This document shows, one piece after another, positions 4,838 through 29,740 of a stretch of 33,317 nt of DNA. The stretch lies in IMG/VR virus record IMGVR_UViG_3300018080_000409, positions 1-33,317 of that record; one strand, 5' to 3'. The notes beneath the pieces are model-generated. The model saw only the letters and a program-made list of their open reading frames with translations. It was not told the DNA's origin and made no database searches. The translations under genes were made by a program, and so were the position numbers. Position 1 is the first letter of the stretch. The number at the start of each line of letters is the position of its first letter. Source of the stretch: a virus.

Positions 4838-5490
4838 TAATTATCCACTTCCGTTTCAGTTAATTCAAGTGTGTAAGTCCATTTCTGACCTTCTTTAACT
4901 TGTGTATTAAATGATATATTAAAATTCTGAACAATTACATACATAAACTGTGAACTTGAATCTGAACTTGTAAAATTACCTAATATGTTTACTATTGCAT
5001 TGTCACTTGCAGACGCAGCAGTCGTACCTGCAACGCCTCTAGTACAACCTGTAAAAGATGTACTTGTCGTTCCAGTATAAGAGATAATCTCGTTACCAAT
5101 CCTTATTGTGCCTGTGCTACCTGCTCCTTCAGTAGAATCAACAGTAATGGTGGAATCTGAAGATGATATTGATCCATCAAGTAAAGTTTCCTGGTTACCT
5201 GTTCCGATAAAGAACTTGATAGCAGATGTACTTTCACCTGTAAACTCAATTCTTGAAAAAGATTTTAAATGTTCAGACGTAGTCTTATCAGTATCAATAT
5301 CTATTATACCGTTTAAACTTACATAAGGATTTTCAAAACCTGCAACGTCAACTTCAACAATGTCAAACTTACCAGGTACAGGTTCTTTGTTATAAAGATT
5401 TTTCCAAACATATTTAACAGATACACCATTAAGAATTACTGCATTTCCATTGTTAACGTCTGGATGTTGTAATGATACTATTCCTGCCAT
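4837..5490 (-). CDS. Distal tail-like protein with an inserted carbohydrate-type module
   Basis: A 217-residue protein directly after the tape measure gene, the usual place of the distal tail protein. The ends (residues 1-95 and 170-217) look like a tail-tip beta domain. The middle, about residues 100-165, has the pattern STITVDSTEG, GTIRIGNEIISYTG and TGCTRG, a small beta module often seen in phage tail and baseplate proteins. GGTGG lies 5 nt upstream of the ATG, which overlaps the tape-measure stop as TAATG. The distal tail role is inferred from position. Confidence 0.6.
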   Translation of the reverse strand: MAGIVSLQHPDVNNGNAVILNGVSVKYVWKNLYNKEPVPGKFDIVEVDVAGFENPYVSLNGIIDIDTDKTTSEHLKSFSRIEFTGESTSAIKFFIGTGNQETLLDGSISSSDSTITVDSTEGAGSTGTIRIGNEIISYTGTTSTSFTGCTRGVAGTTAASASDNAIVNILGNFTSSDSSSQFMYVIVQNFNISFNTQVKEGQKWTYTLELTETEVDN

Positions 5491-7046
5491 TATTGACCAC
5501 CTATTTGTAGGTAAATGTCATCAGTAACTTTTTGTTGTAAAGCATCCACAATTGATTCTGGACTACCATCTGTTTTAACATCAACCTGATTAATATTAAA
5601 TACACTTACCTGTTCAGGAGCAATACTTTGTTGTTGACCAAAATAACTGTCATCAGAAGTACCACCAAAGTAATCGTTTTGTCCCATGTTAGTAATTGTG
5701 TCTGAAGCGTTACTTGGACCAGTCATCCAATCAATATCACTATACAAGTCAGCAGCTCTCTTGTTTATTAATTCTTGTGCAGATGCCATTCCTGCATTAA
5801 ATTGATCATAACCTAAATTCCTTCTTTGCCAATCATCAACATCACTTTTTATTTCATCATTATTTTTTCTCCAATCCTCAATAAAGTTATCAAGGTTTGG
5901 TAATCTCCAATCTGCACCTATTGCAGACAAAGCTGAATTTATTAATTTAAATATTGTTTTAAGTGGTTTTGTTATTGATTCAACAATACTAATTCCTAAA
6001 TCTGTAAATAATGAGTCAAGGCTTTGTGCAATATCAAATCCTATATTTAACATGAAAATTACTAAGTTACCTGCTAACCGAATAATTGTAGTGATAATAC
6101 TTAGTATGATTTGGATTATGCCTGTACCTAACCGCATTAAACCACCAAGTAACATATTAGAATCGCCTGTAAGTATTCCCCTGACAAACTCTGAAAATCC
6201 TTTAATGCTTTGTTTTAAACCTTCAAATATACCACCAAATCCATCTGTAATAGCACCAACCCAACTTTTCATAAAATCTTGGATTCCACCAAAGTTAGTT
6301 TCCCATATCTCTTTCAATAATATTACAGCTGCAATAATTATAACTAACCATGCAATCAATTCACCAAAACCCATAGCTGCAATAGCATTGCCTAGCTGAG
6401 TACCCATGATTTTTCCTATAAATAAAGTAAATGCTTCAAACACACCATTAAATGCAAGTTTTAACATTCCAAACGTAGTTAATAACGCACCTAGTGCAGC
6501 TCCAAAAATAATAATTCCTGCAACAAGTCTAGGATTCTTTTCAACCCATTCTGCCAATGCCATTATAATATCCATAATCATTGGTATAAATGGTGCTAAC
6601 GCTGAGTTTATGGCATTACCAACAGTAAAAGCCAGGTATTGCATTGATGCAGATAATAATTGTATGTTTGACACTCCATCTTCAGTTGTAGCCATAACTT
6701 CGTTAAAGACTGAAAAAGCTTTTCTTAATATACCTTGAAACAATCGTTGGATAGCCATACCAAAAAACATGATAGATAATGCCCATCCCTGAAATTTAGG
6801 GACCATACCTTTCATTTTTTTTTGAAATCTTTGGACAGAATTACCAGTCATTTCAATAGATTTAGCTGCACCTTTGCCACGAGTCTCTACAACACCAAGA
6901 GCATTACCCATTTCTTTTCCACTTACATTAAACTTCTTACCCTCTTTAGCAAGAGTGGTCATACCTAACTTTAAACGATCTATTGTTCTTTGAACTCCTT
7001 CAGAACCTAACAATCTAAGAATTATGTCAATATTATTTTCTGCCAT
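5490..7046 (-). CDS. Tail tape measure protein
   Basis: A 518-residue protein with an N-terminal helical region (residues 1-85, charged, EGVQRTIDRLKLGMTTLAKE), then several long hydrophobic stretches (about 90-110, 140-165, 175-200, 215-245, 300-340), and a C-terminal helical domain rich in Trp, Asp and Asn. This is the classic tape measure layout. It follows the two tail assembly chaperone genes. Tape measures set tail length; at the usual rise of about 0.15 nm per residue this one would give a tail of roughly 75-80 nm, shorter than in most siphoviruses. The ribosome site is GAGG before ATG. Confidence 0.85.
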   Translation of the reverse strand: MAENNIDIILRLLGSEGVQRTIDRLKLGMTTLAKEGKKFNVSGKEMGNALGVVETRGKGAAKSIEMTGNSVQRFQKKMKGMVPKFQGWALSIMFFGMAIQRLFQGILRKAFSVFNEVMATTEDGVSNIQLLSASMQYLAFTVGNAINSALAPFIPMIMDIIMALAEWVEKNPRLVAGIIIFGAALGALLTTFGMLKLAFNGVFEAFTLFIGKIMGTQLGNAIAAMGFGELIAWLVIIIAAVILLKEIWETNFGGIQDFMKSWVGAITDGFGGIFEGLKQSIKGFSEFVRGILTGDSNMLLGGLMRLGTGIIQIILSIITTIIRLAGNLVIFMLNIGFDIAQSLDSLFTDLGISIVESITKPLKTIFKLINSALSAIGADWRLPNLDNFIEDWRKNNDEIKSDVDDWQRRNLGYDQFNAGMASAQELINKRAADLYSDIDWMTGPSNASDTITNMGQNDYFGGTSDDSYFGQQQSIAPEQVSVFNINQVDVKTDGSPESIVDALQQKVTDDIYLQIGGQ

Positions 7047-7252
7047 TATTTCCTCTTTGTCTTATTCATATTACGTTTATGTTCTTCTGCTTCCTTTTTC
7101 ATCTTGTTAAGTAATAAATTGATAAAGGGGATTGGCTGTTTCATTAAAGTATCGTAATCCCAACGAAACTTACTTACTAATGCGTATGTTATGTCACCCA
7201 AAGGATCGTTTGATGAACCTTTAAGTTTCTTTAACTTATTCTTTATACTCAT
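7046..7252 (-). CDS. Tail assembly chaperone, second ORF
   Basis: A 68-residue very basic protein between the first chaperone and the tape measure. It has the short pattern typical of the second chaperone: PLGDITYALVSKFRWDYDTL, a Pro-rich hinge, and an EAEEHKR tail. It overlaps the upstream gene by ATGA. In many phages the two chaperone products are linked by a programmed frameshift; here the overlap is a plain ATGA with no clear slippery heptamer, so re-initiation is more likely. The pair would hold the tape measure during tube assembly. Confidence 0.65.
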   Translation of the reverse strand: MSIKNKLKKLKGSSNDPLGDITYALVSKFRWDYDTLMKQPIPFINLLLNKMKKEAEEHKRNMNKTKRK

Positions 7253-7632
7253 TTCGTTGCTAAGTTTTGTGTGTTAACTTCCAATACAACTGGCATTAAA
7301 GCAAACAAGTTACTTGCTGCAAAACCTTCCAGTTTCTTTTCGTCAACATCTGGATAACTTACTTTCAATGAACTAAATACTAAATCGCTTATTTTGTCCA
7401 TTGCTTCTGAACCAAAAGCTTCTAAGAATTTCCGTGTTTTTTCCTCATTAGGAACATTATCATCTTGTAGAGCGTTTAAGTCTACACTGCTCATAACTTT
7501 CATAACATCAAATAACAATCCCATCTTTGAAAAAGGTAAGGGTTGTATAACAAACACATCTTTCTCTCCACTTTCAGATTCAATTTCCACTTCTTTCCCT
7601 TTAGCTATATGCCTATCAAATTTGTCAACCAT
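7249..7632 (-). CDS. Tail assembly chaperone, first ORF
   Basis: A 127-residue protein. I start it at the ATG at 7632 because GGAGTGA lies 6 nt upstream; a GTG three codons earlier falls within this ribosome site. The N-terminus (FDRHIAKGKEVEIESESGEKDVF) followed by a helical domain (FSKMGLLFDVMKVMSS, KFLEAFGSEAMDKISDLV) fits the first chaperone of phage tails, similar to the lambda G family by size and layout. It sits just before the smaller partner and the tape measure. Sequence identity is weak, so position carries most of the weight. Confidence 0.65.
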   Translation of the reverse strand: MVDKFDRHIAKGKEVEIESESGEKDVFVIQPLPFSKMGLLFDVMKVMSSVDLNALQDDNVPNEEKTRKFLEAFGSEAMDKISDLVFSSLKVSYPDVDEKKLEGFAASNLFALMPVVLEVNTQNLATK

Positions 7633-7682
7633 TTCAATCACTCCATATTATTATCTATTTTTATTGTTTTTAAAATATTCGT

Positions 7683-8000
7683 TTATTTGTTACCGAAAGT
7701 CTTGGGTTTAGCCTTTTTTGGTTCATCTGGCTGCTGTTGTAACTGCTTTTCAAGTTCTTCAACCCTGACCTTAAGCTCCATATACTGTTCAAACAATAAT
7801 GCTTCTTTAATGTTTGAGTTCTTTGCATCAAGTAACAGTTTTAGTCCCATTGGATAATTATCATTTGCTTCAACCTTACAGAACTCTGAAAATTCCTGGT
7901 GTATCTTTTCAGGACAAGATTTAATGTTAAAATTAACTGTAACTAAATCAAGTACCTTTTCTTTGATACTACACTTATCTTTACATTCTTCTTCACTCAC
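7683..8000 (-). CDS. Hypothetical coiled-coil protein, GTG start
   Basis: A 105-residue protein. The start codon is GTG at 8000, with GGTGA 6 nt upstream. It has an N-terminal cysteine cluster (EEECKDKCS), a middle phrase IHQEFSEFCKVEANDNYPMG at residues 34-53, a predicted coiled coil at about 60-92 (LLFEQYMELKVRVEELEKQL) and a Lys/Pro-rich tail. I do not recognise the family. The middle phrase resembles short helical proteins in archaeal viruses and plasmids, which is a weak impression only. It overlaps the preceding gene by 8 nt. Confidence 0.65.
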   Translation of the reverse strand: MSEEECKDKCSIKEKVLDLVTVNFNIKSCPEKIHQEFSEFCKVEANDNYPMGLKLLLDAKNSNIKEALLFEQYMELKVRVEELEKQLQQQPDEPKKAKPKTFGNK

Positions 8001-8238
8001 TTTGTTTCACCTCTACTATAATGTTATCAAAATCTTGAGTATTATATATCTTATAATCTGTACCTTGTTTGTCATATAAGTCACATAAGTCATAGAAAGT
8101 TGTAACAGACTTCGGTACTATTATGTTATCTTTACCTGTTATGTCTTTCAATTTTGATACAAACTTAAATCCTTCTCTTGTAATCTCTTTATACCTTTCC
8201 AACTTCATAAACCGATCTATCGGTGTTTCTGATACCAT
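7993..8238 (-). CDS. Hypothetical small protein after the glycosyltransferase
   Basis: An 81-residue charged soluble protein that I do not recognise. The start ATG at 8238 has GAGGTG 7 nt upstream and lies 22 nt inside the end of the glycosyltransferase gene. It overlaps the next gene by 8 nt. It could be the last member of the sugar cassette or the first of the resumed tail module. There are no membrane segments or metal-binding motifs. Confidence 0.6.
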   Translation of the reverse strand: MVSETPIDRFMKLERYKEITREGFKFVSKLKDITGKDNIIVPKSVTTFYDLCDLYDKQGTDYKIYNTQDFDNIIVEVKQSE

Positions 8239-9209
8239 TCATAACCACCTCTGTCTTTACAGATATCTAACGCTTCTTTATACCTTTTAACACTGTTCTC
8301 ATAATTGAAATATTCTACATCATCATAAGCCCTGTTTAAGATGTCATCAACGTCTTTGTTTAACACTGTCTTGAATATGTCCCTAGTCTTATCAGTATTA
8401 AAAGGATCACAGGTTAGTTCTGGAGTTAACTTTGAATATGAAAAGACTCTATCACTACCAACAACAGGTTGTTTCCAACACGCACATTCAACACCGTTCC
8501 TTCCGTAAGTGTGGTATGGGTTTGGATCGTACAGACAAGCTTCACCCATTATTAACTGTGCAAACTGTGGAAAGTTAGTTAACGGAACAATCCTATCAAA
8601 CATTATTCCATGCCAAGATTGCATTGGACTTTTACCATCCATGTAACTAAACATCTTTGTCATGTTAATCTTATCATTTTCTTTTTTAACCTTGTTAAGT
8701 GTCTTGTAAGGTAGATATGTTTGTTCTGCCCACCAATGAAATATAAAACCTATAGAATTTTTAGCATTAAAATCAGTTCCAAGCTTCTTAAGATATTTAG
8801 TGTTTGAAGGGTGAGGCATACAGAAAGCACCTTCAACAAGGTTAGACGTTTGATGAGGTTCAGTTCCAAACACCATGTCACCCATACGTTGATAAGTATC
8901 ATACATCAATGGATCAATACCAAACTTTTCCCAGTATTCACAAACATAATCATTGTTAACTACTAACATGGTACTGCTGTTTTTAAGCTGTTCTCTAATC
9001 AAAGGAATCATAGGCATATCTTTTGGACTTGCATTAACCTGTATAACATCATAATCCTCAAGTCTATCTTTAATTGACCAATAAGTGTTAATCTCACCAC
9101 CTAATGCAAATATCCAGTTGTATAGTCCTGACCTTGCAGGTTGTTCAGCCAAAGTATCTTTAATGTTTTTTGGTATTTCTTTAGCTATCATTACTTGTGT
9201 ATATTTCAT
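8217..9209 (-). CDS. Putative GT-B-like glycosyltransferase
   Basis: A 330-residue soluble protein. The N-terminal half shows Rossmann-type alternation (DYDVIQVNASPKDM, MLVVNNDYVCEYW) and the C-terminal half has a donor-site-like stretch: LIMGEACLYDPNPYHTYGRN, then VECACWKQPVVGSDRV, a pattern close to the E-x-x-x-C/A-G-x-P-V region of GT-B glycosyltransferases. The family is not certain. It overlaps the radical SAM gene by ATGA (9206-9209) and has a GGTGA ribosome site. The neighbours (sugar dehydratase, second glycosyltransferase, radical SAM) suggest a sugar-transfer pathway acting on a virion or host surface glycan. Confidence 0.6.
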   Translation of the reverse strand: MKYTQVMIAKEIPKNIKDTLAEQPARSGLYNWIFALGGEINTYWSIKDRLEDYDVIQVNASPKDMPMIPLIREQLKNSSTMLVVNNDYVCEYWEKFGIDPLMYDTYQRMGDMVFGTEPHQTSNLVEGAFCMPHPSNTKYLKKLGTDFNAKNSIGFIFHWWAEQTYLPYKTLNKVKKENDKINMTKMFSYMDGKSPMQSWHGIMFDRIVPLTNFPQFAQLIMGEACLYDPNPYHTYGRNGVECACWKQPVVGSDRVFSYSKLTPELTCDPFNTDKTRDIFKTVLNKDVDDILNRAYDDVEYFNYENSVKRYKEALDICKDRGGYEWYQKHR

Positions 9210-10270
9210 ATAAAGTTCACCTCATCATCATTATTGTTTATGTAACTAATTAACTTATTAATCTCATGACATTTACAACATACCTGACATTTGTTAAGGT
9301 TTAAGTTCTTTAACATACTAACTCGTTTTGATGAGTTCCAGATGTCATTAAACGATTGATTATATATGTTACCAAAAACAAAGTCTGGATCGTTTAACAG
9401 ATACATACAAACGCATAAGTCACCATTAGAATTAAGTACACATTCAAACTGATGACCTTCACAGATATCATAAGTCTTACCATAATCAGTTTTCATAAGA
9501 TCATTAAACTTGTCCCAAGATATTCTTAGTTCTGTATTACCGTACTTAACACCATCAATAATCTTAAGGTAACTAATTTGTTCAGATAATATTTCTCTGT
9601 TAACTTTTTCTTTGTTATAAAATCTTGGTAACACCGGTCTAACTTGTAAGTAATCAACTTTTAGTTCTGATGCCAGGTCCATTAATGATAAGGCTTCTAT
9701 CATCTGGTTTGGTTCTTGAGGCATATTCATGTTTATTCCAACTTTAATAACTGATTTGTTAATGTCACTAATAACATCAATTACTTTTTCAACTGCATTA
9801 ACACCTTTAATGTCAAGATAATGTTGACGATCGTTTGTGTCTAACGAGTATCTAACCCATTTACAACACGTTTCAATAGTACGATTATACTCTTTTGGAT
9901 AAAGTCCACAAGTCATTAATCCCTGATCAAGTCCAAGTTTCTTAGCATAGTTTAAGATACTACAAAAGTCTGGATGTTGTGTAGGTTCACCACCTCCTGA
10001 CCAAGTAACAGATTTACCACCTGCTTCAACATATTCTTTAAGGAACTGTTTAAGTTTATCTGTCTTGATAACATTATTATTCTTAGCTGAATAACTTGAA
10101 ATGCACCATTTACAAGACAACGGACATCTATCAGTCAAGTTAACTTCAATTAAGATTGGCGAATCAGTTGATCCTGATACTTTGTACTGGTTTAGTTTGT
10201 TACTATGCTTAAACATCTTAACTTGACTATTAAACGGATTGTCTGTTACAACTTGCATATACTCATTCAT
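9206..10270 (-). CDS. Radical SAM enzyme with SPASM-like C-terminus
   Basis: A 354-residue enzyme. The radical SAM iron-sulfur motif CPLSCKWC is seen with Cys49, Cys53 and Cys56 (C-x3-C-x2-C), followed by a GGGEPT motif (SWSGGGEPTQHPDF) that contacts SAM. The C-terminal region holds a second cysteine set (CEGHQFECVLNSNG, CVCMYLL, then KCQVCCKC) like the SPASM or twitch domain, which binds extra clusters in peptide-modifying and sugar-modifying enzymes. It starts 8 nt inside the end of the sugar dehydratase gene. The substrate is not evident; sugar or peptide modification are both possible. Viruses rarely carry such enzymes next to glycosyltransferases. Confidence 0.85.
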   Translation of the reverse strand: MNEYMQVVTDNPFNSQVKMFKHSNKLNQYKVSGSTDSPILIEVNLTDRCPLSCKWCISSYSAKNNNVIKTDKLKQFLKEYVEAGGKSVTWSGGGEPTQHPDFCSILNYAKKLGLDQGLMTCGLYPKEYNRTIETCCKWVRYSLDTNDRQHYLDIKGVNAVEKVIDVISDINKSVIKVGINMNMPQEPNQMIEALSLMDLASELKVDYLQVRPVLPRFYNKEKVNREILSEQISYLKIIDGVKYGNTELRISWDKFNDLMKTDYGKTYDICEGHQFECVLNSNGDLCVCMYLLNDPDFVFGNIYNQSFNDIWNSSKRVSMLKNLNLNKCQVCCKCHEINKLISYINNNDDEVNFI

Positions 10271-11183
10271 CTTGAATCATCTCTCTTAATATTGTATCAA
10301 TATCTTTATACGCTTGAAGCTGGTTCATGTTCCTTAACTTTGAATCGTCAAGACTGTACCTTCTATCATGCCCAGGTCTAGCATGATGAAAATCTATCCA
10401 TTTAATCATGTTATCAGGTAACTTTTCTTTCTTGATAATTTCATAAATTTTTGATGCTAACGTATATACATCAACCTCGATACCAGCAATATGAAATATC
10501 TCTTTAGGTTTAATATCTTTTAACAATAAATAATGTACGTCTGCTGCTACATCCTCTGCATATACCCAGTGTCGTGACGCAACGTCATCTTTACCTGTTC
10601 CGTGTAATATTATCTTTTGTTCGTTCCTTATTGCTTTGATAGTCTTACCTATAAACTTATTTTCATTTTCACCTTGTCCGATTACGTTCATACACCTAAC
10701 GATAAATATGTTAAGTCCAAACGAATGTGCAAAAGAATAAGCTAACATCTCTTGAGATGCTTTTGTTGCTGAATAAGGATTGGAAGGTTTAAACGGAGCA
10801 GATTCATTAAACGATTCAGTACGTTTAGCTGGTCCTAACACTTCATCACTAGAGAACAAACAAACCTTTGCCTGTTCCTGATGTTTTTTGATCCATTCAA
10901 ACAATATACCAGTAAACATAACATTATCAAGAATGAAAGGCATAACATCATCAAGACTTTCATCAACTTGTGTTCTTGCTGCCGTGTGAACGATGTAATC
11001 AAACTTAACCTTATTCATTTGATGTATGTGCTTATTAATGTAAACCCTATCACTGTTTGGAACCCTGTCTGAACTACTTCTTGTTAATGCATAAATTATC
11101 CAGTCTGTATGTTCCAAGAAATACTTAACCATGTTATGAGCTATGAACCCATTTGCTCCAGTAATCAATATCCTTTTAGTCAA
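10263..11183 (-). CDS. NAD-dependent sugar-nucleotide epimerase/dehydratase (RmlB-like)
   Basis: A 306-residue extended short-chain dehydrogenase/reductase. It has the NAD-binding TGANGFI at residues 8-14, the SSDEV phrase matching the S/T-DEV active-site region of dTDP-glucose 4,6-dehydratases, the NPYSATKAS motif with the Y-x3-K catalytic pair, and ARPGHDRRYSLD near the C-terminus, a signature of RmlB-type dehydratases. It would convert an NDP-hexose to a 4-keto-6-deoxy sugar in the cytosol. The start is TTG at 11183, preceded by GGGTGA at a spacing of 6 nt. It overlaps both neighbours by 8 nt, so the cassette is translated as a unit. Confidence 0.85.
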   Translation of the reverse strand: MTKRILITGANGFIAHNMVKYFLEHTDWIIYALTRSSSDRVPNSDRVYINKHIHQMNKVKFDYIVHTAARTQVDESLDDVMPFILDNVMFTGILFEWIKKHQEQAKVCLFSSDEVLGPAKRTESFNESAPFKPSNPYSATKASQEMLAYSFAHSFGLNIFIVRCMNVIGQGENENKFIGKTIKAIRNEQKIILHGTGKDDVASRHWVYAEDVAADVHYLLLKDIKPKEIFHIAGIEVDVYTLASKIYEIIKKEKLPDNMIKWIDFHHARPGHDRRYSLDDSKLRNMNQLQAYKDIDTILREMIQDE

Positions 11184-11745
11184 AATGCTTCACCCATTCA
11201 ACTTTTTTGTTTCTATAAGTCAATTTATCTTTCATGTTAAGGTGAGGTTTAGATTCTTTTTCATAATCAATCTCCATTAACACTGCATCAGGATTATAAA
11301 CAATCTCTTTCAAATGTATTGTTACATCTGTTAGCTCTGTATCGCCATAGTTTTGCTTGTAATCATCAGAAAATAAGCCCATGTCATAAGGCAATTTCTC
11401 AATTAACTTTCGGGATATAAGCCCTGCTGTGGCTATATGACCATACCATTTCCCATCATTAAACACGCACAAACCTTTACCAGTCTTTTGTAACGTATCA
11501 TAAGCGATCTTAACATAATTAATACCTGGAAAATAATCGTCACAAGAATAAATTAAATAATCATAGTTTAGGTTTCTGGCTGCCCAGTTCTGCATTGCAA
11601 CCCAACCTTCTTTATATTCATCTTCCATCAAATATACTTGCACAGGCATCCCAGCTCTTGATTTGTGTATGTCGGCTGCCTTTGTTGCCTGTTCAATTTC
11701 ACCCTTTCTGTAAGGGATTACTACTAATATCTTCTCATCATCCAA
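11176..11745 (-). CDS. Putative GT-A glycosyltransferase, TTG start
   Basis: A 189-residue protein with a GT-A fold pattern: an ILVVIPYRKGE beta strand and loop at the N-terminus, a NYDYLIYSCDDYF segment holding the acidic metal and nucleotide-binding motif (D-D-Y in place of D-x-D), then a substrate region. I start it at TTG 11745, because GAGGTG lies 6 nt upstream. A GTG three codons earlier (11754) would lie inside the ribosome site. It is first in the sugar cassette and overlaps the dehydratase gene by 8 nt. The donor sugar is unknown. Confidence 0.7.
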   Translation of the reverse strand: MDDEKILVVIPYRKGEIEQATKAADIHKSRAGMPVQVYLMEDEYKEGWVAMQNWAARNLNYDYLIYSCDDYFPGINYVKIAYDTLQKTGKGLCVFNDGKWYGHIATAGLISRKLIEKLPYDMGLFSDDYKQNYGDTELTDVTIHLKEIVYNPDAVLMEIDYEKESKPHLNMKDKLTYRNKKVEWVKHFD

Positions 11746-11763
11746 TTCAAACACCTCAATTAA

Positions 11764-11785
11764 TCAAAAATTAAAAAAATAAAAA
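11764..11785 (-). terminator. Poly-T stretch after the tail tube pair, candidate archaeal terminator
   Basis: On the minus strand this reads as runs of T broken by single A bases (TTTTTATTTTTTTAATTTTT), directly after the stop of the 44-aa gene. Archaeal polymerase terminates at U-tracts without a hairpin, so this could separate the tail tube transcript from the sugar cassette. It may also be plain AT-rich spacer. Confidence 0.35.
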
Positions 11786-11920
11786 TTATTCTTCTTCTTT
11801 CTTACTGCTTTTCTTCTTCTTAGGATATCTACCTGCAACTGCTGTTCCTGATGCAGTCATCCTAACAATAGTTACTGTACCGTCACCGTTATCAGTTTCA
11901 GATAGTATTTTATCTTTCAT
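11786..11920 (-). CDS. Small basic protein after the tail tube gene
   Basis: A 44-residue ORF starting 3 nt after the stop of the tail tube gene. It begins MKDKILSETDNGDGT, has a short beta-type middle (TVTIVRMTASGTAVAG) and ends in a Lys/Glu tail (KKKKSSKKEEE). No strong ribosome site is seen, so it may be made by re-initiation. I do not recognise it. A poly-T stretch follows it. Position next to the tube gene suggests a tail accessory role. Confidence 0.6.
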   Translation of the reverse strand: MKDKILSETDNGDGTVTIVRMTASGTAVAGRYPKKKKSSKKEEE

Positions 11921-11922
11921 CT

Positions 11923-12645
11923 TTAATTAGTGTACCTGTATCTTGTGGTTGTAGTTCCAGCTGTCCAACTAGGTGTTGTAGTAGCTGACCAATCAAGATA
12001 ACCTTTAGATATCCTTAACAGACCTGAATTACTTGCTGCATCTGTTGCAGTTGTAGTCATACTAGCTAAGATTGTTGATGTAGTACCATTATAGATACCT
12101 TCTTGTTCAATAAAGTTAGCAAATCCGTCAGAGTCTGCTGATGAAAATTCTAGGTTAAGTGTTCCTTTCATATATTCATCTGCTGAAAATTCTTTATCAA
12201 ACGTAACTGACTTAACGTCACAACAAATCATTCTGTATATTGCTTGATCTTGTGATGGTACAGTTACAGTATTACCTGAGTTAGATACATGATACTGACT
12301 GTCTTGGAACCAGAATATGATTCTCCATCTACTTGTTGCGTCTGTTGATAATACTAATCTATTGTTTGATGAGTCTGGTGTAGTTGAATTACTACCGAAC
12401 TGTGCAAAGTCAAAGAAAGTATCGTTTATCATTATGTCAAAACTTAATGTAAACTTCTCTCTTGGTTTCTGGAAGTTAAATGTTTTACCTCCAAATGCAT
12501 ACACGTCTTCTGTAGGTTGAGCTCCTCCACCAGAGTTCCATGTTAATACTTTTCCATCAACGTTTGTGATGGTTTGTGAACCTTCTCTTTCGAAAGTGAT
12601 TATTACATCTTCACCTTCATAATGGTCCAAACTTGTTATTGCCAT
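11923..12645 (-). CDS. Major tail tube protein
   Basis: A 240-residue beta-rich protein located between tail completion proteins and the tail chaperones. The layout (an N-terminal beta domain with QTITNVDGKVLTWNSGGGAQ, a KPREKFTLSFDIMINDTFFD middle, and a late SADEYMKGTLNLEFSSADS strand pair) is that of phage tail tube subunits. The ribosome site AAAGGTGAT is one of the clearest in the window, which fits a highly expressed virion protein. No sheath gene is found next to it, which argues for a non-contractile tail. Confidence 0.7.
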   Translation of the reverse strand: MAITSLDHYEGEDVIITFEREGSQTITNVDGKVLTWNSGGGAQPTEDVYAFGGKTFNFQKPREKFTLSFDIMINDTFFDFAQFGSNSTTPDSSNNRLVLSTDATSRWRIIFWFQDSQYHVSNSGNTVTVPSQDQAIYRMICCDVKSVTFDKEFSADEYMKGTLNLEFSSADSDGFANFIEQEGIYNGTTSTILASMTTTATDAASNSGLLRISKGYLDWSATTTPSWTAGTTTTRYRYTN

Positions 12646-17584: not shown

Positions 17585-20104
17585 CTAATCACCTTGATAT
17601 ATTTCCCAACCGTTAGTTACACAGGTTGTAGCGTCAGTTTCTACACCGTTACAAGCATAATATCTCATACCGAACTCTGTAGCTTCAAGTACACAATATT
17701 TAAACTCGTCAGCAAAACCGCCGTCACAGCTAGGTTCAGTTACAGTAATTGTAGTTCCAAGAACGCTTGACACAGTACCATTGTACCAATCATTCGTAGG
17801 AATAACAGTTAAGTTATAAGTGGTAGTTGAACTTAAACCTTCAATCTTAACAGTGTTATCAGTAGTAGTACCGTTAAACACGTTATCAAGTAATAACCAG
17901 TTAGATGTCCATTCAACATTGGTTGGGTTTGTCCATGTAAAGTTTAAGAAGTTTGTACCTTCACTTGCAGATATTAAATTAGTAATCCTAAGCCTAGTTG
18001 TAGCAGTTACACTTTTAGTTGTAACCTCTTTAGTATCATCACACTGAACCTGTACAGTATGTTCCTGATAACTTATGTTAGTCCAGTTATAATTGATGTT
18101 AAACACAACGTCTCCTGTAGTATTAAGACTATTATTAGACTGAATCGTGACTGAATCTCCTATAATGTCACAATCAACTGTATCGTTCTGTAAATCACTA
18201 ACATTATATTCAATGAACAACCAGTTCCTGTCATAAGTACCAGTTACTGGACTGATTATTGTAACGTTTGGTGCATCGTTTGGTATCGTAAAGTTAACTG
18301 TTAATGTATAATTGGTAGCTATCGTTTCTGCACCTGCACTGTCAAAAGCACCACAACTCCATTCATAAACACCGTTCCTTAAAGATTTAGTAAACGATTG
18401 TGTATGATTACTTGTGTTACCTAGTATGATAGTTTCGTTAGCTATCCAATTTAAACTATTATTATCTGATAGATAGAATGTCATGTTAGACAAGTTAAAG
18501 TCGTCTGTTGCGTTACACTTAAAATCAAATGAAGTTGTTGTAATGTTAATCTCATTGTCAGGCGGTGATATTAAGTTTACTGTTGGTGGTGTGTCACCTG
18601 ACGTATAATCAAAAGTTACGTTGTAAACGTTAGGTGTTACTGTGTTTGATACTGTGTCTAAGTATAAGTTGTACCTTGCATACTGACCGCTTATGCTTGG
18701 TATGTTTACTGATGGTGTTTTAAGAAAATCAATTTCATAAGAGTTTGTAAAGTCGCTACTGTTAGATATTTCTATAGTTCCGTTAATCTTTGTAACACCC
18801 CTAAGATATAAGTTTTCAATCTCTGAATCAGATAGGGTACGGTTAAAAATTGCTACTTCGTCTATCGTTGCATTAATAAAACTACCAAAACCTGACTCTA
18901 AAGCATTTGCGCCAATAGAAAAGGAATTAACAAAATTATCTATTGCGCCAGAACAAGATGTCGTATCACTTGATTCAAGTTGTCCATTTACATATATATT
19001 ATTTTGTGAACCGTTATAAGTACCAACAACATGATACCATTCGTTCAAACTTGCTTCTGTGGTTGAAACTGCTACACAGTTTCCACCTGCTGTATCAATC
19101 CTAAACCTAAACGTATTACTTAAACTTGCACCATCATATTGTAATTGTAATAAATCTGTTGAATCCCCTTGAAAAAACATCTTGCCTGAAATCGTACCTT
19201 TAAGTTTTACCCAAACAGAACCCGTAAACTTACCCATTGAATAATCAATGTCTGTAGTATTAATTGCATCATTAACACCGTCAAAGTCATAAGCACTTGA
19301 ACCTACTTTACTGTTACTTGTCAATGTTGCACCTGACACAATTCCGTCATTGTTACCTTCTGTATCTTGTGCGTTACCTTCAAAACCCCACCTGCTAACT
19401 ATTCCTGTATAATTGAAATATGAACTATCTTCGCTACTGTTAAGACCACCTGCATAGTCAAGGTACATAGTATAATTGTTCCAAGTTGTTTCAGTTGAAC
19501 TACTGTCAAAGGATTGACTTAGATAAGTTCCGTTATAATAAGATAAGTTAAGTTGTAAAGCGTTCTCTGTTGTATTATAAAAAGTTTTGTTGTATGTTCC
19601 CAAGTCAAAGTCAGATTGTAAAGTTGTAATAAATGTTGAATTGTAACCAATCTTACAATATCCAGAAGTACACAGACTTAATATTTCTTCAGGACTGAAT
19701 GTGTAAGAACCAGGATAATAACCAATAATAAAACCATTGTCCATGAAAGGATTAGTTCTTTCTTGACATAGTTGATGAGGATTGATCGGGACTAAACTAT
19801 TGTCTTTAAATCCGTAAGGACATTCTTCTTCATAAGTGTTAACTACTTTAATCAGTCCAAGTTCATATTCATATTCTTCCTGGTAATTAACTGATCCTTT
19901 CCAACCTTCATAACATCGTGTTCCGTCTGAAAAGTTATTAGAATGAGGATAACAGGTAATGCCTGAACTTGAAAAATGTTCACATTCACTTATGATTCCT
20001 CTTTGTTCACAAACATAAGTTTTATCTGTAACGATATAACCTGCAAGGATTGCTAACAAGACGATTGTTGCTGCACCGAGTCCTGCCCAAGTTTTACGTT
20101 CCAT
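17585..20104 (-). CDS. Giant membrane-anchored LamG / Ig-like surface protein
   Basis: An 839-residue protein. Residues 8-25 form a membrane segment (GLGAATIVLLAILAGYIV), followed by a cysteine-rich region (31-150). Residues about 231-435 fit a LamG/concanavalin-like domain (SRWGFEGNAQDTEG, then FDGVNDAINT and ATIDEVAIFNRTLSD). Residues 495-700 hold two or three Ig-like domains (PPTVNLISPPDNEINIT, then SPVTGTYDRNW), then a fibronectin-III-like part and a Cys-containing end. Sequons are dense throughout. It follows the 96-aa zinc-site protein directly. Such proteins bind sugars or partner cells; here it may be a virion spike or a virus-made host-surface protein. Confidence 0.8.
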   Translation of the reverse strand: MERKTWAGLGAATIVLLAILAGYIVTDKTYVCEQRGIISECEHFSSSGITCYPHSNNFSDGTRCYEGWKGSVNYQEEYEYELGLIKVVNTYEEECPYGFKDNSLVPINPHQLCQERTNPFMDNGFIIGYYPGSYTFSPEEILSLCTSGYCKIGYNSTFITTLQSDFDLGTYNKTFYNTTENALQLNLSYYNGTYLSQSFDSSSTETTWNNYTMYLDYAGGLNSSEDSSYFNYTGIVSRWGFEGNAQDTEGNNDGIVSGATLTSNSKVGSSAYDFDGVNDAINTTDIDYSMGKFTGSVWVKLKGTISGKMFFQGDSTDLLQLQYDGASLSNTFRFRIDTAGGNCVAVSTTEASLNEWYHVVGTYNGSQNNIYVNGQLESSDTTSCSGAIDNFVNSFSIGANALESGFGSFINATIDEVAIFNRTLSDSEIENLYLRGVTKINGTIEISNSSDFTNSYEIDFLKTPSVNIPSISGQYARYNLYLDTVSNTVTPNVYNVTFDYTSGDTPPTVNLISPPDNEINITTTSFDFKCNATDDFNLSNMTFYLSDNNSLNWIANETIILGNTSNHTQSFTKSLRNGVYEWSCGAFDSAGAETIATNYTLTVNFTIPNDAPNVTIISPVTGTYDRNWLFIEYNVSDLQNDTVDCDIIGDSVTIQSNNSLNTTGDVVFNINYNWTNISYQEHTVQVQCDDTKEVTTKSVTATTRLRITNLISASEGTNFLNFTWTNPTNVEWTSNWLLLDNVFNGTTTDNTVKIEGLSSTTTYNLTVIPTNDWYNGTVSSVLGTTITVTEPSCDGGFADEFKYCVLEATEFGMRYYACNGVETDATTCVTNGWEIYQGD

Positions 20105-26203: not shown

Positions 26204-26248
26204 TACAATACTCTTTAGAAAGTTATCCTTTTTAAAATAATTGATTTT

Positions 26249-29200
26249 TTATTTAGCTACAGCAAAAAAAGGGTTAGATTGCTTGTTATATTTCCTGTGA
26301 CTACCCTTAATAGCTCTAAACAAACCCATTGAGATGTGTCTAGCGATAAAATTGGCTAATGATAAAGAGATCACACAATTATGAACAATAGTATTCTCTG
26401 CTACATAACTTACATCTTCTTCAACTTCAATATTATAAACATCTTAACGCATATAACCTTCATTAATCCTATGTATAGCTGAAATTAAATAATCACCTTC
26501 AATAGTTACTTTTACATTGTTATGTTTACTCTCTTTCCAAGAAACCCAGTATTGATCTTTATTTTTAGTGCCATACCTTTTCCTTTTTAATTTACTAATC
26601 AAAGCAGGTTTATTCATCCTTAAAAGTATCATCTGCATCTGAAGTGACAACTCTTTACTAATAGAAGCAGTTATATGATTTCCGTTTGGATCAACATATC
26701 CATCACCACAGAAATACCCATCATATAACGCTTTTTGATACTCAACAGGATATTTTAAAAAAGAAGAAGGTAACTTTCTATCTTCACTTTTACCTAAATT
26801 TAAATAAAACTGTATATGTTTTTTCATACCTTTCTGAAGAATAACACAATTATTATACGTATATTGTTTAAATTCTAAACCATATTCTTTTTTCATGCAT
26901 TCTTTTGCTTTCTTAATATCTTTTTTATTCTTAGAATTAAAAGAAAGACAGAACATACCGTCATTTTTACAACTTCCGTTTGCTAGATAAAATCCAATCA
27001 ACCACATTTTTTCCTTAGAATATGGACATTTAATAGTCTGTCGCATGATTGGATACATTGTTCTATAACCATTTGCTAACTGGTGTGGTAATACCCATTT
27101 TGGATTCCAAAACCTTTTTGCTTTACTTTTATCTTTATATTTATAAAAAAAATTACTTTTCTTACAAGCATAAATTGGATGTTCATGTGTAACATCAAAC
27201 TCAAGTGATCCATAAGGTTTGATACGAAGATATTTGCCTTTAAATGGTTTCTTTACTGTTCTCCATACTTTCCTAAACCTGCCTCTATGAGTTAAAACAG
27301 AATCTCCAATCTTAACATCTTCAACAGGTTTCCATCCATTTTCTGTAAAAATCCTTGTCCCCTCCCGAAGACAATCATCGTATTTTCCCAAGCCCTCAAA
27401 CCTAACAAGCTTTTTCCTTGCATCAAATATGATTCCAAACTTAGTAAGTTCATCCATTAAAGTTTTAACTGTTGTCCTTGTTTTAAAATCATCTGGACTG
27501 TAAGGAATTATGAACCCCTTCTTTTCAAACTGATCACGTAACGCTTTAATCAAATCTTCTTTTGAACCAGGTGTAAACTTAAACCCATCAATCGGAATTC
27601 CTTCAGCTTTAAGATCATAAATAAACGTTTTACCAAAAGAACTCTCATCCCCTAGTATCTTAGTGACCTTAAACTTATTAGAAAGCTCTACAATGCGTTC
27701 TTTCTGTATATTGTAGTCCAGACCTTTCCAACGATAAATGTTCAGTAGACGCAGTTTATTTGTGTCTAAACGCTTTTCAAGAATTGTAACAACAGTATAA
27801 TCTGCACCTGATTGAGCAGACATAGCAAAGTCAACACCCATAAAAGTCTGAGTATGGTTAGTTAATTCTTCAGTAAACGATTGGGATGTATCAAGACAAA
27901 CGGAAATCATTGATTCTGGAAACAATTGATCTTGAAGTCCAACAGGATTTAACATAAACTCTTGTTCCCAAGTAAGTGACGAATATGTTTCAATAACTTG
28001 ACCAGTTTTTCTGTCAACAATGTGAACTGCACCATCAACATATTCAATCTTTGAATCAGGGTATCGTTCTTCAAACAAGTTACCTTTATCACCTGTTGCT
28101 GGAAACCTGTCAGTATAAATTGAACTAAAACCTGGATCAGATTCAATCTCATGTAAAACGTCAATAGAACTTTTAGGTGTTCCAACACCAATAAAGAAAC
28201 CCCTATGAGCTCTAATTGTTGGTAATATTGCTTTAGTTAAAATCTCTGAATCTTCATATTCACCAATTTCGTCACAAGCAATACCACCAAAATGAAAACC
28301 TCTAATACTGTTTGTGTAAGGTTTTGATAAAATACGACCACCATTGTTAAGTTCAATCTCAGTACGGCTCCAACTTTTTGATCTGTTCGGTGGAACTAAC
28401 GTTTTTAACATCTTATTAGTTAAGATAGTTTCACGAATGTTACGCAAAACCCCAATAGCTTGTGGTAAAGTTTTAGAGATTATACAATATCCATCAGTGT
28501 GTATCATAGGATTAGTTACGGCTTTCCAAATAAAATAATTAACAAGTAATTGTCTTGTTTTTCCTGAATTGTGAACTAAAATGTTATTTGCAACAAACCA
28601 TTGTTTGACAGGTACGTGTAAATCGTACACATCTTCAATACCTTTATAAGTAATTTTTTGTATCTGACACCATTTAAAGATTTCATTATCTGAACCTTTT
28701 TCAAAACATTGAAACTTATATTTTTTAAACTTATATTGGTCGGTGATGTCATAATCACAATTAAAAAACTTATTATTCTCATTAGCTTTTAGAACTTTGT
28801 TAACATCTTTACCGATAGGCTTAACCAATTTACAAAATTTAGTTTGTTGTTTGGCACGTTCAATCATAACATTAAATTGTCCTTTTGATTTCTTAACATA
28901 AGAATGAATACCTAACCTTTTCAGAAGTGCACAAACATACCTGGCAAATATCTTCTTCAAACCACAATGTAACGAGATAGAAGCATATTTACCTTCCCTT
29001 ACATAAAAACAACCATCACTTGCATATAAACCTTCTAAAAACTTAATTATGTCTTTGTTAGTAGAAGTTAAGATGTCTAACGGAAAATAGTCATCAATCT
29101 TTAAAGAGCGTAACTCTGTTCTTAACCTATTAGGTTTAAATGTTTTTTTACCAGAAGTAACAACATAATCATACCCATTACCTTTCTTATATTTTCTACA

Positions 29201-29740
29201 AATAAGTTCTGGATATTCTTTAATTATTAATTCTTCAAATCTTTTTAACAAATCCAAATTTGTATTAATAAACTTGATAGACTGTCCTTTCTCTAAAGCT
29301 TTGAAACAATAAGAATCTGAGGATAACAAACCTAGTAATAAAGGATTAATTTTACATTTACTACCCCTTTTCTTTTTCTGAACTAAAGTTGCAACAATGT
29401 CACCCACATTTAAATCTTTAACTTGTTTCCAACCTTTAGTTGTAAATATTGGATGTTCAGCAGTTGCGTCTAAATAATTCTTATTATTAAGTTTAATCCT
29501 ATAAGTTTTATTCTTACCCATACACCAAGCATCAGGATGATCTTTAATCTGACAAACTGAACCATCTCTGTTATGAACTACTGTATTACCTGATAAACAT
29601 GACCTAAACGCCATAAGACTAATCCTTTTCTTAGTTTCAACTAACTTAAGCCACTCAGCTTGGTACGAAGTAAGTTCCATACCAATAATGTGTTTAATGA
29701 AATAAGAAGGATCACTTCTCAGCTTTTTCTTGTCCAACAT
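26249..29740 (-). CDS. terL: Terminase large subunit with two inteins and an in-frame stop
   Basis: The frame from ATG 29740 to TAA 26249 is 1163 codons, broken by one TAA at 26444-26446. Removing both inteins gives a 487-residue terminase, a normal length. Extein parts: residues 1-47 end AFRS and join SGKTRQ (Walker A across the first intein); Walker B is ACDEIGEYED (Asp490, Glu491); nuclease motifs are GVDFAMSAQSGADYT, ILGDESSFG and GKYDD joined to CVISLSLANF. The start lies 29 nt inside the small-subunit gene. The enzyme is the packaging motor. The TAA falls inside intein 2, 22 codons before its end, so full-length product would need readthrough, a corrected base or a sequencing error. Confidence 0.85.
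26378..27373 (-). mobile_element. Intein 2 in TerL, in the nuclease motif, with an internal stop
   Basis: An intein of 331 residues plus one stop codon. It starts with Cys790 (CLREGTRIF) directly after GKYDD, has block B VTHEHPIYA with His854, LAGLIDADG-type segments GFYLANGSC (Asn921 where an acid is expected) and LYDGYFCGDGYVD (Asp1013). The last 22 codons (block F: DVYNIEVEEDVSYVAEN; block G: TIVHN) lie after a TAA at 26444, and Cys+1 follows. The homing nuclease may be inactive in one active site. Because the block F/G end is intact and in frame, the stop looks recent or is a base error. Confidence 0.85.
28568..29599 (-). mobile_element. Intein 1 in TerL, inside Walker A
   Basis: A 344-residue intein. 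It starts with Cys48 (CLSGNTVV, block A), has block B DATAEHPIF (91-99), two LAGLIDADG-type segments (LLGLLSSDSY, about 135-143; FLEGLYASDGCF, about 234-246) with acidic residues Asp142 and Asp242, and ends with block G ILVHN followed by Ser (+1). Splicing would rejoin AFRS with SGKT, restoring Walker A. Because the insertion splits the ATP-binding loop, the terminase is inactive until it splices. Confidence 0.9.

Follow-up and report, generated by a model that had tools for sequence, protein, structure and literature searches.

The tail module of IMG/VR record IMGVR_UViG_3300018080_000409, which was analyzed over its complete length of 33,317 bases (hereafter the window), contains a cassette of four overlapping minus-strand open reading frames (ORFs; overlaps of 8, 8 and 4 nt) for two glycosyltransferases (GTs), a sugar dehydratase and a radical S-adenosylmethionine (SAM) enzyme. 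Judged by the gene content of related viruses, the cassette site is an exchangeable glycan-tailoring slot arranged around a constant GT-B-fold enzyme, and the window's four genes are one variant of it. We favor, at a probability of about 0.55, the reading that this slot builds glycan from within the late block of an archaeal head-tailed virus, and that a radical-modified 6-deoxysugar would be put on a virion protein. The four genes had been placed here by an initial annotation, and the ORFs were confirmed at 8217-11754 on the minus strand:

11176-11754, minus strand: GT-A-fold glycosyltransferase, 192 amino acids (aa), likely TTG start at 11745; assigned by fold and DD motif
10263-11183, minus strand: RmlB-like nucleoside diphosphate (NDP)-hexose 4,6-dehydratase, TTG start; assigned by PF01370 and motifs
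9206-10270, minus strand: radical SAM enzyme with a SPASM/Twitch C-terminal domain, ATG start; assigned by PF04055 and PF13186
8217-9209, minus strand: GT-B-fold glycosyltransferase, the slot's constant member, ATG start; assigned by fold and conservation

Relatives of the window were collected with an alignment of the capsid protein, which recovered 36 viral contigs. Eight of these span the cassette site and represent 7 distinct viruses after merging (3300007511_000277 was merged with 3300009008_000071, being 99.98% identical over 14,581 bp), or 8 with the window. The truncated GT-B of 3300035698_011995 was included in this count; contig L025, which ends inside GT-A, was not, and the remaining 27 contigs carry no matched gene beyond the site (L044 was covered over 508 bases). 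Scans of viral contigs with single sequences had returned at most two relatives each (none for the dehydratase), and a two-sequence radical SAM scan one, so that alignments were required. In 8/8 distinct site-spanning viruses, window included, GT-B was found within the structural module, at 52-63% identity to the window's GT-B. Its partners are GT-A, dehydratase and radical SAM enzyme in two viruses, GT-A alone in one, and one or two methyltransferases in five, as follows:

Window and 3300035698_011995: GT-A, dehydratase, radical SAM enzyme, GT-B (the GT-B of 3300035698_011995 is cut by the contig end)
3300035698_010569: GT-A, GT-B
3300009008_000071, 3300025122_000126 and 3300038314_001080: GT-B, two methyltransferases
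3300002231_000728: GT-B, one methyltransferase
3300037586_002662: methyltransferase, then GT-B

The methyltransferases of 3300009008_000071 were identified with Pfam, and those of the other viruses were assigned through BLAST to these. In 3300038314_001080 and 3300002231_000728, the slot and the gene for its usual right-hand neighbor, the 105-aa protein o105, are placed earlier in the structural module, before a tail-terminator-like gene, and a second o105-like gene remains before the chaperones. A more distant GT-B (35%) was found in a 72-kb virus, with genes for a dehydrogenase-like protein, a deacetylase and a methyltransferase coming after it. The idea that the four genes form an indivisible operon was rejected, as GT-A, the dehydratase-radical SAM pair or methyltransferases come and go around GT-B. 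The initial annotation had presented the four genes as a set; a search in other viruses found the same set in 2 of the 8 (window included), with GT-B alone constant. It had also held that independent occurrence of the genes in relatives, acting on unrelated substrates, would speak against a joint function. Such independence was indeed seen in gene content, but the relatives' partners are glycan-type enzymes too. The 72-kb virus (L052, IMGVR 3300021490_000001) additionally carries, upstream of its capsid-region genes, a 1914-aa ORF in which DNA-ligase-like and other segments were noted by eye.

The radical SAM enzyme matched PF04055 (E 3e-16, 60.4 bits vs a cut-off of 29.5) and PF13186 (E 9e-10, above cut-off), with the core motif CX3CX2C at C49/C53/C56. 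A full SPASM domain, holding two auxiliary clusters, has seven auxiliary cysteines. Although PF13186 passes its cut-off, this pattern was not found in the enzyme, in which five (C270, C288, C328, C331 and C332) are kept among close relatives; because only these five are conserved, one auxiliary cluster (Twitch-like) fits the sequence better than a two-cluster SPASM domain. The enzyme also matched BtrN (PDB 4m7t; E 6e-8), mostly via the C-terminal auxiliary-cluster domain, the core domain barely matching. Its terminal NFI or NFL (9206-9220) is conserved in close relatives and may mark a functional C-terminus.

When a three-sequence radical SAM alignment was used, 13 viral loci were obtained, 12 of them beyond the already known family member. 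The loci counted are the window, L005, L076 (a contig of a Candidatus Pacearchaeota genome bin, described below), L086-L092, L094, L096 and L097; L093 (identical to L089) and L095 (which starts at a contig end, leaving no upstream sequence) were left out. In 13/13 loci the gene immediately upstream of the radical SAM gene encodes a sugar short-chain dehydrogenase/reductase (SDR), at a spacing of -11 to +2 nt between longest ORFs; elsewhere in these loci, SDRs account for 8 of 194 ORFs of at least 150 aa. The SDR is RmlB-like in the window, L005, L088 and L089, epimerase-like without the dehydratase acids in L076, L086, L087 and L090-L092, and GDP-mannose-dehydratase-like in L094, L096 and L097. 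The 13 loci share ancestry, so they do not represent 13 independent events; by their sequences, the SDR type changes, the pairing stays, and the window's dehydratase-radical SAM pair is part of a wider SDR-radical SAM unit. That any viral radical SAM gene has an SDR upstream was rejected, as none was found among the radical SAM genes examined in six accessioned phage records. In seven other genomes from the phylum to which the Pacearchaeota bin belongs, only 2 of 14 radical SAM homologues have an SDR upstream. The records behind ten of the loci, which are fragments, yielded no capsid relative of the window's family (0/10); one gene in L087 is presumably a T4-like sigma factor, to go by its motif. 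To the initial annotation, a radical SAM enzyme was unexpected in a plain glycosylation set; within its clade, a sugar SDR precedes it at every locus, and it is no stray.

The dehydratase, of the NAD-dependent sugar dehydratases by family, matched PF01370 (E 5e-38) and TIGR01181 (E 4e-52); because the latter score, 177 bits, falls below the curated cut-off of 365, the enzyme is called RmlB-like instead of RmlB. The hallmarks of RmlB, a deoxythymidine diphosphate (dTDP)-glucose 4,6-dehydratase, are the catalytic [ST]DE triad, YxxxK and RxGHDxRYxxD. In the window's enzyme, the SDE triad is present as SSDEV, YxxxK as NPYSATK and RPGHDxRY as RPGHDRRYSLD, and L005 has the same sites. The nearest solved structures to the window's enzyme are dTDP-glucose 4,6-dehydratases.

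GT-A and GT-B gave no match in Pfam, PHROGs or NCBIfam. AlphaFold models were built from 4 GT-A and 8 GT-B sequences, with moderate mean predicted local distance difference test (pLDDT) values of 73 and 72.6, respectively. In VIA-align comparisons, the GT-A model reached its best Z of 15.1 with the fucosyltransferase WrtF (151 residues, 2.4 A), and the 50 entries listed for it (Z 12.4-15.1; model residues 1-172) are all GT-A enzymes or GT-A-domain proteins. Moreover, its CDDY motif, of which D72-D73 is invariant in 4/4 family members, provides an acidic DxD-type putative metal motif. Foldseek matches of this model include the PBCV-1 capsid GT and STIV A197, and matches in a viral library include GTs of cyanophage ACG-2014f and mycobacteriophage Che8. 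The GT-B model reached a best Z of 19.8 over about 290/330 residues, and its 50 listed entries (Z 18.1-19.8; 281-310 residues aligned) are all GT-B enzymes or pseudo-enzymes. An E-x7-E motif is the hallmark of family GT4; in the YGRNGVE segment of GT-B, only the second Glu is conserved, and Pfam gave no match. At the level of predicted structure, the GT-A and GT-B folds are confirmed for two proteins that the sequence libraries missed; a common fold tells neither the donor nor the acceptor of either enzyme. The names initially given to all four products thus proved right, by motifs and RmlB structural relatives for the dehydratase, by both Pfam domains and CX3CX2C for the radical SAM/SPASM enzyme (a Twitch-like auxiliary part being preferred), and by the fold matches of both AlphaFold models for the transferases.

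The hallmark genes suggest that the window is an archaeal head-tailed virus. Caudoviricetes head-tail genes were detected (capsid, portal and tape-measure PHROGs), and among named phages the capsid protein was matched solely by Halogranum tailed virus 1, an archaeal virus (27%, two records). When the capsid alignment was searched against a genome collection, one relative (36% identical) was found, in the Candidatus Pacearchaeota bin. Of 279 genomes searched from its phylum, the same bin also gave the best radical SAM match (E 1.6e-90, 40% identity), on another contig, where the gene sits in a larger GT/methyltransferase cluster in the order GT-A, SDR, radical SAM, GT-B. The VYSDTLSL repeats in which one of these two contigs ends are also those in which the other begins, so that both are probably parts of one archaeal virus. 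The contigs (L054 and L076/L082-L084) measure 27.8 and 61 kb; together they would make up a virus of about 89 kb that has long stretches of this repeat and a large cluster of glycan genes. The host of the window is perhaps of Pacearchaeota type, a lead subject to binning errors. A donor for the slot was sought among the 279 genomes; GT-B had one weak partial match and GT-A none, which left the slot with no host donor in this set.

The scheme that we propose builds on the observed gene content, order, folds, motifs, conservation and swapping, and it predicts substrates, reaction order and acceptor. The dehydratase would convert a host-supplied NDP-hexose to an NDP-4-keto-6-deoxyhexose, from which the radical SAM enzyme, probably co-translated with the dehydratase, would abstract hydrogen (for epimerization, dehydrogenation or deoxygenation), and GT-A and the constant GT-B would transfer sugars to a growing glycan. 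Because relatives use methyltransferases in place of the dehydratase-radical SAM pair, the slot would vary the outer sugars. Given the slot's position among virion genes and its retention throughout the family members examined, the likeliest acceptor would be a virion surface protein, to which host machinery may add the first sugars. One candidate is an 839-aa surface protein with 37 N-X-S/T sequons (18.8 expected, z 5.0); a large surface-type protein of L003 has 54 (29.2 expected). Glycosylation is on record for some archaeal viruses, as are putative GT genes in a few of them (PMC10384203), and virus-borne enzymes could extend a host-made glycan. Sugar making and transfer, as first proposed, remains the best reading of the cassette; the ideas of an indivisible set, a stray radical SAM enzyme and a cassette-linked poly-T are given up.

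Several points weigh against the proposed scheme. The tail tube and capsid proteins show no sequon enrichment, so that sequon-rich targets, which the initial annotation had sought among surface and tail proteins, were found for the 839-aa surface protein and not for these two. No gene for biosynthesis of the NDP-sugar starting material was recognized in the window. Because the SDR beside the radical SAM gene is not of the RmlB-like type in 9/13 clade loci, the substrate of the radical SAM enzyme need not be a 4-keto-6-deoxysugar. The GT-A, SDR and GT-B of the bin virus are not close homologues of the window's, and for that reason their common gene order is, as far as sequence can tell, a shared plan and not a shared set.

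A less probable, though serious, explanation is that the target is not the virion but the glycan of the host cell surface, which the cassette would change in the course of infection, blocking other viruses or aiding release. This too must be counted against virion glycosylation, given that pelagiphage GT and deoxysugar genes were interpreted by their describers as host-surface modification (PMC7029224). In addition, distant radical SAM homologues in genomes of the bin's phylum often lie, by eye, among surface-glycan genes. However, every family member examined has the slot amid its virion structural genes instead of in a region apart that is devoted to host takeover, which argues for a role in the virion.

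It is very unlikely that the substrate of the radical SAM enzyme is a peptide of the virion or the cell, as for SPASM maturases, and that the enzyme adjoins glycan genes by chance. Its NCBIfam matches below cut-off do include peptide maturases and cofactor enzymes. The five auxiliary cysteines, however, are fewer than the seven of a full SPASM domain and fit one auxiliary cluster, and the C-terminal part matches BtrN, an enzyme acting on a sugar-like ring; no precursor peptide was recognized beside the gene, though no search was aimed at one. The initial annotation had allowed for either a sugar or a peptide. Because a sugar SDR is always upstream within the clade (13/13 loci), sugar chemistry is favored over peptide modification.

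The surroundings of the cassette comprise the following features:

17585-20104, minus strand: 839-aa sequon-rich surface protein, possible acceptor by N-X-S/T count
11923-12645, minus strand: tail tube protein candidate, 240 aa, by gene order; conserved in the family
11786-11920, minus strand: 44-aa ORF between T-tract and tail tube, read from sequence; a short ORF lies at the equivalent place in L003
11765-11786, minus strand: oligo-T tract 3' of the 44-aa ORF and tail tube gene; a probable transcription terminator of archaeal type
7993-8238, minus strand: 81-aa protein 3' of GT-B; a 37% identical homologue adjoins GT-B in 3300037586_002662
7683-8000, minus strand: 105-aa protein (o105), the slot's constant right-hand neighbor in 7/7 distinct viruses reaching it, window included
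7046-7641, minus strand: two small genes, for products of 130 and 68 aa, placed where tail-assembly chaperones are expected, by gene order
5490-7046, minus strand: tape measure protein (phrog_58, E 1e-11)

The tract at 11765-11786 is the sole minus-strand stretch with at least 16 T in 20 (50 shuffles average 0.04). In L005, L049 and L050 such a tract lies 12-19 nt 3' of the tube gene; in the window, L003 and L025 it lies just 3' of the short ORF behind the tube, and in L061 it is weaker. In L051 the tract follows the relocated tube and is absent before GT-B; L047 has none, and the one behind the tube of 3300037586_002662 is visible by eye under the 16-of-20 threshold. In 19/25 distinct relatives (for example L003, L005, L049, L050, L025 and L011; 25 of the 36 capsid loci were scanned, as distinct contigs), a T-rich tract also lies no more than 30 nt behind the capsid gene; the window has none there. 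Archaea end transcripts at oligo-T without a hairpin, and the tract is best read as a probable archaeal oligo-T terminator, not a scar. As an insertion mark it was rejected, given that it follows the tube gene even in a relative with a moved tube; the poly-T that had been described as preceding the block belongs to the tail-tube gene instead of the cassette. The genes for tube and capsid, whose products are expected to be required in the largest numbers, may each be followed by a stop signal, with the cassette read at a lower level. For the view that the cassette is a recent, selectively neutral cargo insertion without a fixed role, one could cite the differing partner genes of relatives and a poly-T that might hint at a boundary. 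The retention of GT-B in 8/8 distinct viruses, the linkage of the tract to the tube gene, and a cassette GC content level with its neighborhood nevertheless make such an origin very improbable. Most improbable of all is that the genes glucosylate viral DNA as in T-even phages: the GT-B fold is common to many enzymes, but no hydroxymethyl-pyrimidine or other base-modifying gene was recognized nearby, no DNA glucosyltransferase is among the matches listed for the GT-B model (which does not exclude one), and the cassette lies in structural genes.

The genes upstream of the cassette comprise one for head closure (phrog_161, E 1.4e-5), one that weakly matches a tail terminator (phrog_176, E 0.0037) and the tube candidate; downstream are two small genes, two chaperone-like genes and then the tape measure protein. 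The tail tube and chaperone names were assigned from gene order, and the tube candidate gave no PHROG match and no meaningful match when its alignment was searched against the PDB. GT-B overlaps its downstream gene by 22 nt. The longest GT-A ORF starts with GTG; because GAGGTG sits just 5' of the TTG at 11745, that codon is, by sequence, the better start. TTG starts of the first two genes, noted initially as unlike their neighbors, were confirmed; the contrast holds only by half, as several nearby ORFs begin with GTG. The small proteins between GT-B and o105 (7993-8238; L061, 12125-12367; L003, 10977-11324) look alike by eye in their C-terminal parts. By eye, o105 is short, ribbon-helix-helix-like and coiled-coil; it is duplicated in two relatives (L047, 12122-12400 and 14708-14947; L051, 11567-11845 and 13743-14003), where one copy accompanies the glycan slot. 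Elsewhere in the window, two insertions resembling inteins lie in the large terminase gene (26204-29740, minus strand), and one of them falls within the Walker A region. An in-frame TGA lies shortly 5' of the C-terminal part of the second, and the gene is broken or read by other means; it is uninterrupted in relatives such as L005.

A few phages are known cases of viral glycosylation; for mycobacteriophage Che8 and its relatives, glycosylation of the virion was reportedly described by Freeman et al. in 2023. Like the window, Che8 and its relatives are tailed viruses with their own GTs, the Che8 enzyme matching our GT-A model by fold; unlike it, they have bacterial hosts, Maravista carries its GTs near the genome's 3' end and not in a tail-module slot, and the accessible part of the source mentions no radical SAM enzyme or dehydratase (PMC11256854). 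Pelagiphages and cyanophages have GT and sugar-SDR pairs and radical SAM cassettes in hypervariable regions, and published work already includes pelagiphage cassettes that combine GTs with radical SAM proteins (PMC7029224). Those are large bacterial myophages with an island beside tail-fiber genes, whereas the window is a small archaeal virus with a single tail-module slot and a constant GT-B. Cyanophage ACG-2014f, for one, has a GT2 and epimerase pair. Podovirus MW202801 (Manatee Spring) carries a radical SAM gene (25% identity), two GTs, a methyltransferase and a NodB-like gene inside its structural module; however, this block belongs to an unrelated virus, is placed after the capsid gene and lacks an SDR next to the radical SAM gene. 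Like the window's enzyme, BtrN, an aminocyclitol dehydrogenase, is one of the radical SAM proteins and has an auxiliary-cluster domain at its C-terminus. In apramycin biosynthesis, AprD4/AprD3 combine a radical SAM enzyme acting on a sugar ring with an NADPH-dependent reductase, a precedent, by description, for sugar chemistry by a radical SAM enzyme that has a reductase partner; AprD4 acts on an aminoglycoside, unlike the role predicted here (PMC5461906).

In the literature searched, with most subscription journals outside it, we found no description of a GT-B-centered swapping slot or of the SDR-radical SAM pairing. We tentatively propose, at less than even confidence, that a sugar SDR gene and the gene for a Twitch-type radical SAM enzyme after it form a constant pair, an undescribed radical nucleotide-sugar or glycan tailoring unit that moves between archaeal and bacterial tailed viruses, takes three SDR types and has, in this archaeal family, entered a swappable glycosylation slot next to the tail tube; virions of the family would then bear sugars that no phage is known to make. 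The SDR-radical SAM pairing offers a concrete lead to radical chemistry on viral sugars. An uncultured archaeal virus family that keeps one structural-module GT-B and swaps its tailoring enzymes provides a testable model of surface-sugar diversification in tailed viruses.

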